A stretch of 20,946 bases of DNA. Origin: a virus. A program made the translations under genes and the position numbers. The notes beneath the pieces were generated by a model that saw nothing but the letters and a program-made list of their open reading frames with translations, did no database searches and was not told the DNA's origin. Below, one piece after another: positions 4,451 through 14,958 of the stretch. Every line of letters starts with the position of its first letter. Positions within the stretch are counted from its first letter, which is position 1. The stretch lies in the IMG/VR virus record IMGVR_UViG_3300009507_000164, positions 1-20,946 of that record; one strand, 5' to 3'.

Positions 4451-4458
4451 TATTTATC
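4451..4458 (-). promoter_or_regulatory. Late promoter box GATAAATA, leaderless type
   Basis: GATAAATA followed by TTAGT and then ATG of the tube-fold gene. With T4 spacing (box at -13 to -6) the first transcribed base is the A of the ATG. No Shine-Dalgarno is present, and the gp19 terminator (4483-4519) lies immediately upstream. Confidence 0.7.
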
Positions 4459-5189: not shown

Positions 5190-5197
5190 TATTTATC
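5190..5197 (-). promoter_or_regulatory. Late promoter box GATAAATA for gp19
   Basis: GATAAATA 22 nt before the gp19 ATG. The predicted start near 5184 leaves a short leader carrying AAGGAG. It sits directly behind the hairpin that follows gp18. Confidence 0.75.
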
Positions 5198-5230: not shown

Positions 5231-8200
5231 TTATAAACCTGCAATTTCTCCTGTGTTTTTCAAACGCAATGGAATGTATATAAATTCAACTGCTTTTACT
5301 GGTTCTATAGCAATATCTACATATAGTTCATTCCTATCGATACGTGTACTTGTATTATTAGTAGTATCACATACTACTAGATAATCATAGATTGCGCGAA
5401 GGCCAACAAGTTCAACCAATAATCCTTCTACTTGCTGTTTAATTTCGTCTCTAGTTATTTTATCATTTGGTTCAAACAGATAAGGCTTAGCAAGTGCATT
5501 AAGTTGACTGCGTAGATAAATTACTAATCTAGCAACATTAACTCTATCAAGAGAACTTGCATTTTTTGCTCTAGTTTTTTGTCCAAATATAACTATTCCT
5601 GAACCTTGTAAGAATGTTATTGGATTTACATTATTAGAATATAATGTATCTCTTTGTCCGGCATTTAATGGAGAACTTATAAACTCTCCTTCGGCACTAA
5701 TATATCCAGTTGCAGTAGCATTAGTAACGCCGCCTCTTCTTGTTCCTGCTGGAGCAAACCAAGGATATGCAACTTGGTCATTAAGAGCTATTGTGCGCAA
5801 CACCATATGACTTGCTGGAACAACAATGTTATTACCTGCATTATCACTAGTGAATCCTGCAGGATAATATACACCTAAGTATTCGTCGTTAGTTACTAGA
5901 CCGTCGTCGTTATCTTCTGGTGCTAGTGCAGTATTAGTTACCCAATTATTAATATTTGTTGCAGTTGGACGTAGTCTCATTGGAGCATCACCAATAACAA
6001 ACGCAGTTAATCCTCTATCGTAATTAAGAGTTTTCATTTCTCCAATTAGTTCAGGATATCCTGGGCAAGCAATTAGGTTAAATAATTTTGACTCGTTATC
6101 TCTAATATCATCATTATCATTTACTGATGCTTGTAATTTTGATACTACAACTTTACGCTGTGCGTGTCTGCCAAAGCTTCCTGAGCCGTCTTGATTATTA
6201 GCTGATTCAGTAACCCAACGATTTGCATAATACCCGCTCATTGATGCATTTGCCATTCTAGTATTAAGTGCATCGGTATCAATGTGATTTTGTACATAAC
6301 GCTTTACATTAAACCCACTTCTGCGTGTATTCCATAGTATCATACCTTTTGGATATAGTGCTGGATCTGGGGAATCAGGATCTAAATAGTTGCTAGTTAA
6401 TAAGTCAACTATTGTCCCTGCTGTAGCACTATTTGCTCCTGAGGTATTATAACGTACATCATCAAATAATATACCATTTTCTGTAGTTTGATCAGTTTTA
6501 TCTAGAATGGCCCACTTTGCTGATGATGCATTCCAACGATACATAGTTGGATAATTTTCAAGATCAGCTGTGCTAATCCATATATCGCCTTCAACTAATG
6601 CCGACTTATCTGATTGTGTAGTTGGCTGTGACGCTGACACTATTGGACCAGCTGGGTCAAGTACACTACTAGCGCCAGTTGCACTTCCTCCTAATGGATC
6701 AAAATTATGCAATCCGACCCAAGTAGTTCCGTTATGTATTAATAGATCTACTTCGTCAACAATTGAGCTATACCAAAGTGTACCAGTTGCTGGGATAGTA
6801 GTTGGCTCAGTTGCTTTGGCTGTATATGTTAACACTTTCCACGAGCTTGCCATAAACTGTTTTGGCGATGTAGATGTGTTTGTTCCAGGAACAAAATAAA
6901 AGTTAGTAGTTGAACTTGCATTAGTTGAATCATATATTGTAAACAAAGATGCTAAAGCACCTGCTGTATCAACAAATCTAATGTCGCCGCCTAATGCATG
7001 TGAAACAGTAATTCTATTTACAGAATCGATCGTAGCAGTAATATTAGTAAATCCTGCTGAGTTAATTGCATTTGCAATTAGTTCAGCATCAGATGTTGCA
7101 CCGGTTGCTGTAAATGAAACAGTTACTGGTGTACTCATAGTAGCTATACCAGTTTTTGATTCTGAAACTGTGAATGAATAAGTACCTGCTGAATATGTGC
7201 TAGCTAAAACTTTGCCACTTGTTATTGTAGTTGCACCTGAATTATTTTTTCTATATACTTTAAATGTAGCTAGTTTTTCTGCTATTTCTGTAAGATTATT
7301 TTGAATATATAATGCGCCTTCAGAAATATTTGCGCCGCCACCTGTACTATCAAGAGAATAAATTGCTGCATAATTAGTATTATATATTGGTGCATCAATT
7401 GTAGTCCACACATCACTAGTTGAATTATATTGTTTTACTGACCAGTTTGCGCCTTTATTTGGATTAGTAGTTTTAATCCATATACTACCAGTTGGTCTTG
7501 GATTTGGATTAATTGCTTTAAATTCAGGAACATTAGTATGAGGTGCAATATTTAATTCTGGAGAATAATAATCACCTTGAGTTATTCCTAATGCTGTAGT
7601 AAGTGCAACATCTCCGTATATTTCTACTCTATCAACTGCTACTCCGCCTTGTGCAGTTGATCCATTGTAATAAATTGCTAGGCGATTACTTATTGCTTTA
7701 GCAGTAATACCTGCAGTTTGTAGTGTACTATTACCATTAATATCACCTACAATACTAGTTAGTGTAGTACCCGAAGTAACTTGGCTTATTTGTGTTCCGC
7801 CACTATCAACAAGACTAATATTAAAAGATAATGTTTGCCCAGCAACAATAGTTGGTGTAGATACAGTACCTGTTACCATTGGATGACTAGCTTTCCATGC
7901 AGAACTTCCAATTTCAACCCATGCTCCAACAGAATTTTTATACCACATTCTGTTAATATTAGTAACTGCAACTACAGCATAGTCGCCAATTGCGCCTACA
8001 CTACCTTTTGGTGTATAATCAGCACCTGCATAATCAACTACTTTAGTAGTGTCAGTAATAACAGTTGGAACTTTATTTGTAAAACTTTGACCGCCGGTTA
8101 CTGTCCCGGATGCACCGTTCCATTCAAATATACCAAATTTTGTATCATCTGTATCAAACCAATATGATGCATTAGCTGCTTTCCCAGCAGTTGCAGTTGC

Positions 8201-8566
8201 ACTTGCGCTAATATCAGCTAAATCAAGATTTGCACGAACTACAAATGCTCTATTAGCTACACCTAAAAATGAATATGCAGCTTGTAATCCGTATTCGTTT
8301 TGTTCGCTACCATGTAACATATTGTTACTAGCATCTTTATAAAATAAAGGGTCGCCAAATGTTTCAGACAGCTCTCTTTGTGAGCTGATTAAATAAGGCT
8401 TTCCTGCATTGGAAGCTAATGTTCCTAAAGCTGTACCTGTTGCTCCAGGATTTTGTTTATTTTCTTTTGTAGCTACAAATATAAGTGGTGTAGTACCAGG
8501 TTCAGCTGGAGTATAAAAACTCTCGTCGCTTACTGATACTGATACACCTGGTGATGTTAATGCCAT
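5231..8566 (-). CDS. gp18: Contractile tail sheath protein gp18, greatly enlarged
   Basis: 1111 aa against 659 in T4. It forms the contractile sheath around the gp19 tube. The N-terminal handshake region (ALTSPGVSVSVSDESFY, 2-18) and the first core piece to about 115 are standard. The conserved C-terminal core runs from roughly 735 to the end, with NDKITRDEIKQQVEGLLVEL and a final VEFIYIPLRLKNTGEIAGL that complete the sheath fold. Between them lie about 600 residues of Thr/Ser/Gly-rich beta modules, far more than in T4. At least five contain a G-x-(W/Y) turn followed by a W/Y-N-x-x-x-W-type motif (near 133-150, 193-220, 359-393, 595-622 and 660-690). These probably decorate the outside of the sheath. 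The start is set by an AAGGGGA Shine-Dalgarno and a late box at 8607-8614. Confidence 0.95.
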   Translation of the reverse strand: MALTSPGVSVSVSDESFYTPAEPGTTPLIFVATKENKQNPGATGTALGTLASNAGKPYLISSQRELSETFGDPLFYKDASNNMLHGSEQNEYGLQAAYSFLGVANRAFVVRANLDLADISASATATAGKAANASYWFDTDDTKFGIFEWNGASGTVTGGQSFTNKVPTVITDTTKVVDYAGADYTPKGSVGAIGDYAVVAVTNINRMWYKNSVGAWVEIGSSAWKASHPMVTGTVSTPTIVAGQTLSFNISLVDSGGTQISQVTSGTTLTSIVGDINGNSTLQTAGITAKAISNRLAIYYNGSTAQGGVAVDRVEIYGDVALTTALGITQGDYYSPELNIAPHTNVPEFKAINPNPRPTGSIWIKTTNPNKGANWSVKQYNSTSDVWTTIDAPIYNTNYAAIYSLDSTGGGANISEGALYIQNNLTEIAEKLATFKVYRKNNSGATTITSGKVLASTYSAGTYSFTVSESKTGIATMSTPVTVSFTATGATSDAELIANAINSAGFTNITATIDSVNRITVSHALGGDIRFVDTAGALASLFTIYDSTNASSTTNFYFVPGTNTSTSPKQFMASSWKVLTYTAKATEPTTIPATGTLWYSSIVDEVDLLIHNGTTWVGLHNFDPLGGSATGASSVLDPAGPIVSASQPTTQSDKSALVEGDIWISTADLENYPTMYRWNASSAKWAILDKTDQTTENGILFDDVRYNTSGANSATAGTIVDLLTSNYLDPDSPDPALYPKGMILWNTRRSGFNVKRYVQNHIDTDALNTRMANASMSGYYANRWVTESANNQDGSGSFGRHAQRKVVVSKLQASVNDNDDIRDNESKLFNLIACPGYPELIGEMKTLNYDRGLTAFVIGDAPMRLRPTATNINNWVTNTALAPEDNDDGLVTNDEYLGVYYPAGFTSDNAGNNIVVPASHMVLRTIALNDQVAYPWFAPAGTRRGGVTNATATGYISAEGEFISSPLNAGQRDTLYSNNVNPITFLQGSGIVIFGQKTRAKNASSLDRVNVARLVIYLRSQLNALAKPYLFEPNDKITRDEIKQQVEGLLVELVGLRAIYDYLVVCDTTNNTSTRIDRNELYVDIAIEPVKAVEFIYIPLRLKNTGEIAGL

Positions 8567-9450: not shown

Positions 9451-9458
9451 GATAAATA
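9451..9458 (+). promoter_or_regulatory. Late promoter box GATAAATA for gp14, leaderless type
   Basis: GATAAATA, then TAAGT, then the ATG of gp14 at 9464. The 5-nt gap is the same as at 4451-4458, again with no Shine-Dalgarno. It is the only candidate promoter seen for the plus-strand gp14-gp15-Nudix unit. Confidence 0.75.
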
Positions 9459-12849: not shown

Positions 12850-13311
12850 TTATGCGTCTTCAGTGAAATCATCATCATCTGTATCAGATAATGTGTTGTC
12901 ATCGCCAGCTTCTTCCATACGTACAATGCCAGCTGCTGCTGATCCTGTAAGTGCATATTTTATCGATGTTCCTGCTAATGCATTTGAACCAGTTGCACTT
13001 GGTGAAGCAACAGTAACTTTTCTGCCTGTAATTTTTGCAACACCGTATGTTTCTGAATCAGCGCCTTGTACTGAAATTGACATTTCGCCTGCTGATAATG
13101 CCGCTGGTAGTACACCAGTTTTTAGTGTGCAAGTAAATAAGCCTGCTGTTCCAATTTCTTCACAAACAAATTTCTTAGAACCTTTTTGTTTTACAATATA
13201 GCCCTCTTTAACTGCTGTTCCGTTATGAAAATTTACTTTGATTTCTGTTCCCGAAGCTGTAGGTCCTGTGCCTGCTACTCCAAACAATCTTTTATTAAGT
13301 GGTCTTCCCAT
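12850..13311 (-). CDS. Small virion-type protein, MGRPLNKR family, acidic tail
   Basis: 153 aa. The N-terminal MGRPLNKRLFG resembles a start seen in small proteins encoded near gp23 in marine T4-like phages; I know no assigned function for these. The middle is Gly/Thr/Ala-rich with predicted beta strands (EIKVNFHNGTAVKEGYIVKQK, 23-43; EMSISVQGADSETYGVAKI, about 76-94). The last 25 residues are strongly acidic (DDNTLSDTDDDDFTEDA). A late box at 13407-13414 lies upstream of a roughly 90-nt leader with hairpins, and AGGAG precedes the ATG. Expression as a separate strong late unit and the small beta-rich design suit a head or tail decoration protein, but this is inference from position and composition. 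Confidence 0.75.
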   Translation of the reverse strand: MGRPLNKRLFGVAGTGPTASGTEIKVNFHNGTAVKEGYIVKQKGSKKFVCEEIGTAGLFTCTLKTGVLPAALSAGEMSISVQGADSETYGVAKITGRKVTVASPSATGSNALAGTSIKYALTGSAAAGIVRMEEAGDDNTLSDTDDDDFTEDA

Positions 13312-13401
13312 TTTTTTTCTCCTATAAAAGTAGTCCTATCCGGGTTCTATCCGGTACGCTGTTGGGACAGCATAAGTGTGCTTAATAACACACTATCTGA
13401 C
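13312..13401 (-). promoter_or_regulatory. Structured 5' leader of the 153-aa gene
   Basis: About 90 nt from the predicted late start. It holds short hairpins (GTGTG...CACAC near 13376-13393; GCTGT/ACAGC near 13360-13373), a direct repeat of CCGGATAG (13336-13353 region) and an AGGAG site close to the ATG. The long structured leader contrasts with the short or absent leaders elsewhere in the window. Confidence 0.5.
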
Positions 13402-13406
13402 GTATA

Positions 13407-13414
13407 TATTTATC
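13407..13414 (-). promoter_or_regulatory. Late promoter box GATAAATA for the 153-aa gene
   Basis: GATAAATA lies 7 bp beyond the U-run of the small-RNA terminator. The RNA gene therefore ends just before a new late unit begins. Confidence 0.75.
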
Positions 13415-13420
13415 AAATAC

Positions 13421-13452
13421 AAAAAAAGGTCCTGCCACTGTAGCAGAACCTT
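13421..13452 (-). terminator. Intrinsic terminator of the small RNA gene
   Basis: The RNA stem AAGGTTCTGC/GCAGGACCTT (10 bp with one G-U; 13426-13435 and 13443-13452) with a 7-nt loop is followed by seven U (13421-13427, partly shared with the stem). Its 5' arm overlaps a competing helix (13449-13455 with 13470-13476). Confidence 0.9.
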
Positions 13453-13639
13453 CCTTAATTAATATTGATAGGAAGGAATTACTTATTACCTTCAACCGGG
13501 CACAAGTAGACTCGTGCAATTAACCCAGAACATGTATGCAGTCGCTAAACCAATCCGCTAAGATTCTTCTACATTACCTTGATGCCGTCTACCGACATCG
13601 CTTCAGTCACCATCTAAGTTAAACCGTCGCCTAACTTAT
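13421..13639 (-). ncRNA. Candidate autonomous structured small RNA downstream of gp23
   Basis: About 219 nt from the predicted start of a strong host-type promoter to a U-tailed terminator, with no plausible protein. The RNA can form a 5' hairpin (AAGTTA/TAACTT, 13616-13621 with 13632-13637), a 7-bp hairpin with a 5-nt loop (13581-13587 with 13593-13599), and a 7-bp hairpin with a UCUA loop (13500-13506 with 13511-13517). It can also form a CCTTCCT/AGGAAGG helix (13449-13455 with 13470-13476) that competes with the terminator stem. G-U pairs keep the stems intact. AAGGTAAT recurs after each of the two 7-bp hairpins, and TTAGCG occurs twice between them. The nearest flanking signals are the gp23 terminator upstream and a late promoter downstream, so it is a separate unit. 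It is not a tRNA: no acceptor stem or T-loop was found. Function is unknown. Confidence 0.75.
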
Positions 13640-13645
13640 GTACTT

Positions 13646-13674
13646 AATATAGCAAACTTATATGGTGTTGTCAA
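13646..13674 (-). promoter_or_regulatory. Sigma-70-type promoter for the small RNA
   Basis: Perfect -35 TTGACA (13669-13674), a 17-bp spacer, and -10 TATATT (13646-13651). An A/T-tract resembling an UP element lies upstream (about 13679-13691). This is unlike the NATAAATA late boxes of the structural genes, so the RNA could be made early by unmodified host polymerase. Confidence 0.85.
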
Positions 13675-13697: not shown

Positions 13698-13723
13698 AAA
13701 ATAGGCGCCGCAGCGCCTATTTT
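13698..13723 (-). terminator. Intrinsic terminator after gp23
   Basis: A perfect 11-bp stem, AAAATAGGCGC with GCGCCTATTTT, around a 4-nt loop. It lies 17 nt past the gp23 stop and is followed by U-rich sequence on the minus strand. It should end the head-gene transcript before the small RNA promoter. Confidence 0.92.
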
Positions 13724-13740
13724 GTAATATAAAGTATAAC

Positions 13741-14916
13741 TTAGCTAAAAGTTAAGCTATTTGAAGTAACTCCGACTAGACCTAAGTAGTCAGCAGCATT
13801 ACCAAGAGAGCTAGCTGCGTTAGTTAGTTCTACATAACCATAACGAGTCATGAAGCTAACAACTGGCTCAAATGTTGCTGGATCTAGCACAACACCGGAG
13901 CTCATTAGCGGAATGTATGGGCAATAAAATGCTGCGGCATCAGATTCAGTTGAACCTTTATAGCCAACTAGAACATTATCGCTAGAAGCATATGTGTTAA
14001 CATATACTTTCATTGCATTGTTCAATGTACCAACTAGTTTTGTGTTAGTTGGTGCTTCGAATGTACCTTCTGTTGTACGTGCAAACGCTGAAGTAGTTGC
14101 ACTTTGTAGGATAGTTAGTACAGTTGGTGAAACAACTGCCCAGTTACCTGCGCCTCTACGTGTACGCTGTGCAATTAGGTTTGATACTCTGTTGATAGTA
14201 ACAGCTAGTGCAGCATGTTCGTCACCAACAAAAGTAGCAGTACCAGACACAGATGTTTGGTCGTATGTTTGTACAGCAGAACCAGCTAGTGTGGTTAAGC
14301 TACTAATTACCTCTTGATCAATTTCAGAAGTAATTTCTTGAGCAAGAGCAGCCATAATTTCTGCTTCTACATCAATGCCATGCTGTGATTGAGCATCTTG
14401 TGCAGATTCAAAAGTCCAGCGAGCGGATAGCTTGCGTGATTTTGCTTCTACAGTTTGCTTCAAGATCTGGATGCTTAGTCTGTTACCAGCTGTACCTTCC
14501 ATGGATCCTGTTGAAGCTGCTTTATCAGTTGCAGCAGCACCTGAGTAACCTTCGGCAATTTTGAATGGGCTTAATGCTTCTTCGCCTGCAGTTACATCTG
14601 TTCCACTAGTTGAATCAAACGTATCTGCATAACGCACTCTCAATGTGTGGATTTGACCGACTGGGCCGGTCATTGGTTGTACACCAACTAGTTCATTTGC
14701 AATGACAGTTGGCATTACACGTCTGATCACTGGTAGGATCACACGGTTAAGTGTCGCGACGTTACCCGCAGAAGTAGCACCAGCAGTTGCACTCTCTGAC
14801 AAATACTTGCGTGTATTTTCAAGAGTAGTGTCCATTACTGCCTTTTTGTTGCCTCCGAGGCCCTCGAGCAGAGCACCTTTAGTCTCTGTCCAGCGACTTT
14901 CTAGTAGTTCTGACAT
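13741..14916 (-). CDS. gp23: Major capsid protein gp23
   Basis: 391 aa, much shorter than T4 gp23 (521), so it probably lacks the T4 insertion domain. It builds the hexameric shell with an HK97-type fold. The first 65 residues form the prohead-only part: ALLEG at 15-19 and YLSES at 38-42 both fit gp21 cleavage (L-x-E), and the NVATLNRVILPVIRRVMP block follows at about 52-69. GPVGQIHTLRVRY (about 84-96) and the DVEAEIMAALAQEITSEID helix (about 180-198) are typical. The C-terminal FMTRYGYVELTNAASSLG matches the end of the family. AAGGAG sets the start 13 nt after gp22. A strong terminator follows. Which cleavage site is used cannot be read by eye. Confidence 0.96.
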   Translation of the reverse strand: MSELLESRWTETKGALLEGLGGNKKAVMDTTLENTRKYLSESATAGATSAGNVATLNRVILPVIRRVMPTVIANELVGVQPMTGPVGQIHTLRVRYADTFDSTSGTDVTAGEEALSPFKIAEGYSGAAATDKAASTGSMEGTAGNRLSIQILKQTVEAKSRKLSARWTFESAQDAQSQHGIDVEAEIMAALAQEITSEIDQEVISSLTTLAGSAVQTYDQTSVSGTATFVGDEHAALAVTINRVSNLIAQRTRRGAGNWAVVSPTVLTILQSATTSAFARTTEGTFEAPTNTKLVGTLNNAMKVYVNTYASSDNVLVGYKGSTESDAAAFYCPYIPLMSSGVVLDPATFEPVVSFMTRYGYVELTNAASSLGNAADYLGLVGVTSNSLTFS

Positions 14917-14928
14917 AATTATCTCCTT

Positions 14929-14958
14929 ATTATAATCCAGCTAGACGTTTAATGTCAA
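14929..14958 (-). promoter_or_regulatory. Possible sigma-70-like promoter before gp23
   Basis: TTGACA (14953-14958), an 18-bp spacer, and TATAAT (14929-14934). The predicted start (about 14922) falls at or after the AAGGAG Shine-Dalgarno, so a transcript from here would lack most of it. The match may be chance within the gp22 end codons. Confidence 0.35.

Follow-up and report, generated by a model that had tools for sequence, protein, structure and literature searches.

Downstream of gp23, the major capsid protein gene of this T4-like bacterial virus, lies a gap with a candidate structured RNA. It raises two questions: whether this RNA is a gene of its own or the leader of a neighbour, and whether it belongs to a family that has already been described. 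We address them using the whole stretch of DNA analysed, a sequence of 20.9 kb (20,946 nucleotides) that we call the window.

The locus and its transcription signals

The RNA gene lies on the minus strand, between gp23 (14916-13741) and an ORF at 13311-12850. The features of the region, in the direction of transcription, are the following:

13741-14916, minus strand: gp23 major capsid protein gene, upstream neighbour (Pfam PF07068 Gp23, E 2.8e-101; PHROG 138)
13698-13723, minus strand: gp23 transcription terminator, an 11-pair stem followed by a T-rich tail
13669-13674, minus strand: -35 box TTGACA
13646-13651, minus strand: -10 box TATATT, TG-extended
13422-13640, minus strand: predicted discrete transcript of about 219 nt, comprising the manA-like RNA and its terminator (start placed by the spacing from the -10 box)
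13615-13638, minus strand: 5' hairpin P1 at the transcript start (manA match and fold)
13462-13636, minus strand: end-to-end match to Rfam manA RF01745, 44.4 bits, below the gathering score of 55.2
13467-13615, minus strand: conserved multibranched core (R2 match, see below, and covariation)
13422-13456, minus strand: intrinsic terminator of the RNA gene, a 16-pair stem and a T run
13407-13414, minus strand: late-promoter-like box GATAAATA of the next gene
13309-13392, minus strand: freshwater-2 RNA (RF02980), leader of the next gene, 74.3 bits against a gathering score of 49.9
12850-13311, minus strand: next ORF, 153 aa, starting MGRPLNK, with its own late promoter

A preliminary description of the sequence had proposed a host-type promoter, for which it gave no strand, a structured RNA of about 219 nt and a U-tailed terminator, bounded by the gp23 terminator and the late box of the next gene. 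All of these are found. The sigma70 promoter, on the minus strand, has a 17-nt spacer and matches the consensus at 11 of 12 positions, and the 219-nt RNA folds at -70.7 kcal/mol (z = -3.64), with none of 200 shuffles being equally stable. With its own promoter and its own terminator, the locus has the sequence features of a free-standing bacterial-type sRNA gene, and the gp23 terminator insulates it from gp23. Only one other promoter site in the window reaches 11/12, inside a coding region. The promoter scan as a whole did not rise above shuffles (13 sites found vs 12.2 expected), so that the weight of this promoter lies in its quality and in its conservation in relatives. The 3.5-kb neighbourhood contains 8 terminator-like sites, vs 1.8 +/- 1.4 in shuffles. 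A perfect TTGACA-18-TATAAT is also present before gp23 (14929-14958, minus strand), mostly inside the final coding stretch of the upstream ORF; the same -10 sequence is missing from many relatives, and the promoter is probably a chance occurrence.

On the downstream side, the next ORF matches no Pfam and no PHROG profile. Its leader, freshwater-2, is the only Rfam name in the gap at gathering thresholds, and it also occurs in the gp23 region of 7 of the 20 related contigs scanned. In two contigs (L041, 4234-4281; L055, 4236-4282), a Glutamine riboswitch aptamer (RF01739) lies directly 3' of gp23 and 5' of the manA-like RNA. Further GATAAATA boxes, mostly near ORF starts, are found in the window at 1004-1011, 1523-1530, 4451-4458 and 5190-5197 on the minus strand and at 9451-9458 on the plus strand; these begin with G and are probably late promoters. 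The tail sheath ORF (5231-8566, minus strand) encodes 1111 aa and is longer than the PHROG sheath profiles that it matches (915, 496 and 962 positions). The isolate gp23s nearest to that of the window, at 66-71% identity, are those of the jumbo phages Phosso, Vibrio 2.275, PA5oct and CBB, and none of these four genomes gave a manA match.

Relationship to the manA RNAs

The manA RNA was described in marine metagenomes, in two gamma-proteobacterial copies and in T4-like cyanophages (Weinberg et al. 2010, PMC2864571). It has been classed since then as cis-regulatory, possibly a riboswitch (PMC2864571), and its Rfam class is likewise cis-regulatory. Its structure was corrected in Rfam 14 (PMC7779021), and S-CREM1 carries a copy (PMC9964418). 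In the open literature, we found neither a functional study of manA, the few papers that name it adding no function, nor a statement that it is a single-copy RNA gene.

A permissive Rfam scan of 481 bp matched the window RNA to manA over model positions 1-192 of 192 (E 2.8e-10), with a score that falls short of the gathering score. The RNA had been thought to be neither a tRNA nor a member of a recognised family. The first part stands, ARAGORN having found 0 tRNA or tmRNA genes, but the second is contradicted by the full-length manA match and by syntenic relatives that score above gathering, and the Rfam search envisaged as a check of novelty thus returned a name. Nor is the gap devoid of known RNAs, as it had appeared: it holds the manA-like RNA and, just outside the interval 13421-13674 first singled out, the freshwater-2 RNA. 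Weak Rfam matches to STnc40 and STnc130 (E 0.06-0.4) were rejected, as they are driven by the terminator hairpins.

The manA consensus structure can be traced through the whole window RNA, from the 5' hairpin over the closing stem and the inner hairpins to the 3' hairpin; one inner arm contains some non-standard pairs. The RNA shares common descent with the syntenic manA copies, and nhmmer and blastn searches with it give matches downstream of gp23 in relatives. Among 20 related phage contigs, found via gp23 and scanned with Rfam, two have manA above the gathering score in the same post-gp23 gap (L059, 78.6 bits; L070, 56.4 bits), and Pelagibacter phage Mosig has it, also above gathering, elsewhere in its genome (64 bits). 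A search of 20 related records gave 12 matches at E <= 0.01, and none in 14 control genomes. A blastn search of the window itself against phage isolates gave no close match to the gap.

An independent link comes from R2, a covariance model built from 36 relatives with the window left out. R2 recovers the window (37.6 bits, E 9.4e-9; alignment over 1-181, all pairs intact in the parts shown), the canonical manA of cyanophage isolates (E 4e-9 to 4e-4) and the Mosig copy (E 2.6e-34). Because one model finds all three, the window RNA is, as far as comparison of sequences and structures can tell, a homologue of manA on a diverged branch. We treat it as a manA-like variant and not as a listed member, since it scores below the curated cut-off and does not lie, as the published class does, in the 5' UTR of a regulated gene: its own terminator and a separate late box and leader come ahead of the next gene.

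The alignment A1, of 37 sequences, gives a structure of six helices and 28 pairs, in which 95.9% of the cells are paired. Two-sided changes that keep the pair occur at 17 of the 28 pairs, and at 24 of the 43 pairs of the canonical copies; these counts use RNAalifold structures drawn from the same alignments and hence lean towards structure, the slid controls being far lower. The covariation score of A1 is 0.525, vs 0.165 in simple shuffles and at most 0.126 in slid alignments. The check proposed beforehand, a covariance model from related phages, was borne out with these controls. So was the proposal of a discrete RNA with a sigma70 promoter inside the late structural region, kept with covariation in related phages. 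In the core, the closing stem pairs 13613-13610 with 13471-13468, and the 3' hairpin pairs 13493-13489 with 13476-13472. Conservation is highest in the residues of junctions and internal loops (0.81, 0.93), while the hairpin loops are variable (0.61, 0.78).

Anatomy, copy number and genomic place across relatives

At least 76 distinct copies of the window type and at least 85 canonical ones were collected from two pattern scans made without reference to gp23 and from the gp23 set. A promoter scoring at least 10/12 precedes 70 of the 76 window-type copies listed (7% in shuffles) and 81 of the 83 canonical copies listed (4% in shuffles), and these promoters sit at a few preferred distances. In 78 of 81 canonical copies listed, the first hairpin begins 5-7 nt past the -10 box, and thus coincides with the expected transcription start. 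In several cyanophage isolates, the -35 box lies within an upstream hairpin of terminator form. An own terminator follows 38 of the 73 window-type copies listed, as compared with 0 of 219 shuffles; its onset is 8-17 nt past the RNA end in 37 of the 73, and at 63 nt in one more. Terminator-ended copies are the largest class in the window-type lineage, among the copies listed, and only 7 of the 85 canonical copies listed have a terminator. An ORF without a detected terminator follows 20 of the 73 window-type and 64 of the 85 canonical copies listed, tRNA genes follow 3 and 8, respectively, and nothing obvious follows the remaining ones. What is new is this anatomy, that is, an own promoter here and in most relatives, and often an own terminator.

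Exactly one manA copy was present in each of the 16 manA-carrying isolate genomes examined and in each of the 18 viral contigs of the window type having a match. All of the isolates and several contigs had been selected for holding a copy, so that these data speak to copy number and not to prevalence, and the count of one per genome may be due in part to diverged copies escaping detection. Its place varies. Six cyanophage isolates (S-TIM4, P-RSM4, metaG-MbCM1, S-SSM5, P-HM1 and MED4-213) have it downstream of gp23, and in P-HM1 and MED4-213 a terminator-like hairpin comes next. It is found upstream of gp32 in P-HM2 (NC_015284.1, 4771-4969), downstream of pstS in P-SSM3, P-SSM4 and S-SSM4, and upstream of talC in P-RSM6 and P-TIM40 and also in P-TIM68, with one opposite-strand ORF between. 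In P-SSM2 it sits between regA and purL, in P-SSM7 it follows a ferredoxin gene, and in Mosig it precedes a rubrerythrin gene. P-HM1 and P-HM2, with the copy after gp23 and before gp32, respectively, belong to the same species by taxonomy. RNA-seq of Prochlorococcus MED4 infected with P-HM2 has been published and mapped to NC_015284.1 (PMC5082946). Among the 73 window-type copies listed with at least 400 nt upstream, 49 come after gp23 and 13 lie immediately before a gp32-like gene, in a set partly collected through gp23; in contigs related by gp23, the RNA lies downstream of that gene in 22 of 62.

Annotated hypothetical proteins overlap manA in P-HM2 (L339, 1555-1729), S-TIM4 (L340, 1625-1816), P-SSM4 (L344, 1246-1419), S-SSM5 (L347, 1207-1413) and P-HM1 (L348, 1155-1331), and the ORFs concerned in these five cyanophages are probably spurious. 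In cellular genomes, a strict pattern searched over 84,980 species returned three stretches, two of which are manA. These two are strong matches in a Prochlorococcus single-cell contig (L381, 2633-2820) and in a Flavobacteriales MAG contig (L380, 126-327), which are possibly phage sequence binned with hosts.

A trans-acting RNA gene or a leader

We consider that the window element is probably a discrete, trans-acting phage RNA of the manA superfamily. This reading is favoured because the promoter, and often the terminator, is kept while the neighbours change, and a sensing leader should keep its gene. Host-type RNA polymerase would start at the sigma70 promoter; the RNA would begin at +1 with a hairpin and fold into a multibranched structure whose core is closed by a long-range stem, and the transcript would end at its own terminator about 219 nt on, as sequence and comparison suggest. 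The next gene, equipped with a late promoter and a leader of its own, would be left unregulated, and the RNA would most likely act in trans, early in infection, a timing that we infer from the promoter type. Its partner may possibly be a host or phage protein or ribonucleoprotein rather than one mRNA to pair with: the conserved unpaired residues lie in junctions and the hairpin loops vary, which hints, weakly, at protein binding as the likelier of the two.

The published view would make manA a cis-regulatory leader or riboswitch, and in the window this would mean attenuation at the adjacent terminator, with control of readthrough into 13311-12850. The placement of manA in potential 5' UTRs (PMC2864571) speaks for it, as do the many listed copies in which an ORF comes next without a detected terminator. 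In the window, moreover, CCTTCC in the 3' strand is complementary to a GGAAGG in the terminator, a potential pairing of -14.5 kcal/mol such as an attenuator would show. However, this strong pairing between the 3' end and the terminator arm is not found in the relatives as a group: the listed duplexes have no common position, the stability of those compared is roughly half that of the terminator, and duplex tests of the RNA 3' end against the terminator arm found no conserved antiterminator across relatives. An initial permutation test with 45 copies yielded P < 0.001. Without the window and the canonical copies, own and swapped duplex energies are close (-6.74 vs -6.03, P 0.0055); with one copy per terminator arm P is 0.0375, and within subtypes the difference is not significant (P 0.09 and 0.29). 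We judge the signal to reflect relatedness and a coincidence specific to the window. Anti-Shine-Dalgarno mimicry by the canonical 3' CCUCCC was also rejected, the window type having CCUAUC there. The next gene of the window is served by a late box and a freshwater-2 leader of its own, and manA is present once in each carrying genome examined, ahead of unrelated genes, tRNAs or terminators, all of which makes control in cis unlikely.

The position of the RNA at +1 of the transcript, its complex fold and its frequent location directly before a terminator also recall the put RNA of phage HK022, which lies at a transcript start, near a terminator. A promoter-proximal RNA of this kind would modify RNA polymerase and lead to antitermination through the adjacent terminator. 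This is improbable here: the terminators after the RNA are strong, in the window another gene's late promoter then follows, and the HK022 put RNAs are much shorter than the manA-like RNA. Just as improbable, in our opinion, is a 5' module with a stabilising or enhancing effect on any sequence behind it (gp32, talC, a tRNA), with terminator-ended copies as degenerate leftovers. The canonical copies do lie mostly ahead of metabolic or replication genes or tRNAs, but copies with and without a terminator stand together in the strongly covarying alignment, nearly all copies of either sort have a promoter, and leftovers would hardly be the largest class of the window-type lineage among the copies listed. 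A chance arrangement without a functional RNA is scarcely credible, since covariation and the conservation of promoter and terminator exceed their controls.

Extending the trans-acting RNA gene from the window to the whole class is more tentative. All manA could perhaps be a family of phage RNA genes and not of riboswitches: single-copy, moving between intergenic sites, self-promoted, made at the onset of infection and acting in trans on the host, common to the phages of cyanobacteria and Pelagibacter and to an uncultured lineage with jumbo-phage-like capsid proteins. If so, the search for a sugar-related ligand would be misdirected, and the right question would be which molecule the RNA binds to when marine bacteria are infected.

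Among known systems, the freshwater-2 RNA shares the gap, directly downstream of the RNA gene, but it is a separate element above threshold that lies past the late box and belongs to the next gene. The wcaG RNA (RF01761) is a sister candidate riboswitch of cyanophages (PMC2864571) and adjoins manA in S-CREM1 (PMC9964418), whereas in the window neither the gathering nor the permissive Rfam scan matched it. The manA RNA itself is the closest system. The window RNA differs from it in scoring below gathering and in ending at its own terminator instead of being a leader, and most gp23-linked relatives carry CAAG/CUUG at the base of the second stem, where the window keeps GTGACTGAA/AAGGT. The two are alike in the full-length structural match, in their occurrence in T4-like marine phages, in the post-gp23 position seen in the six cyanophage isolates, and in the core motifs GTGACTGAA and AAGGTNATG, the closing stem and the 3' GGTA hairpin.
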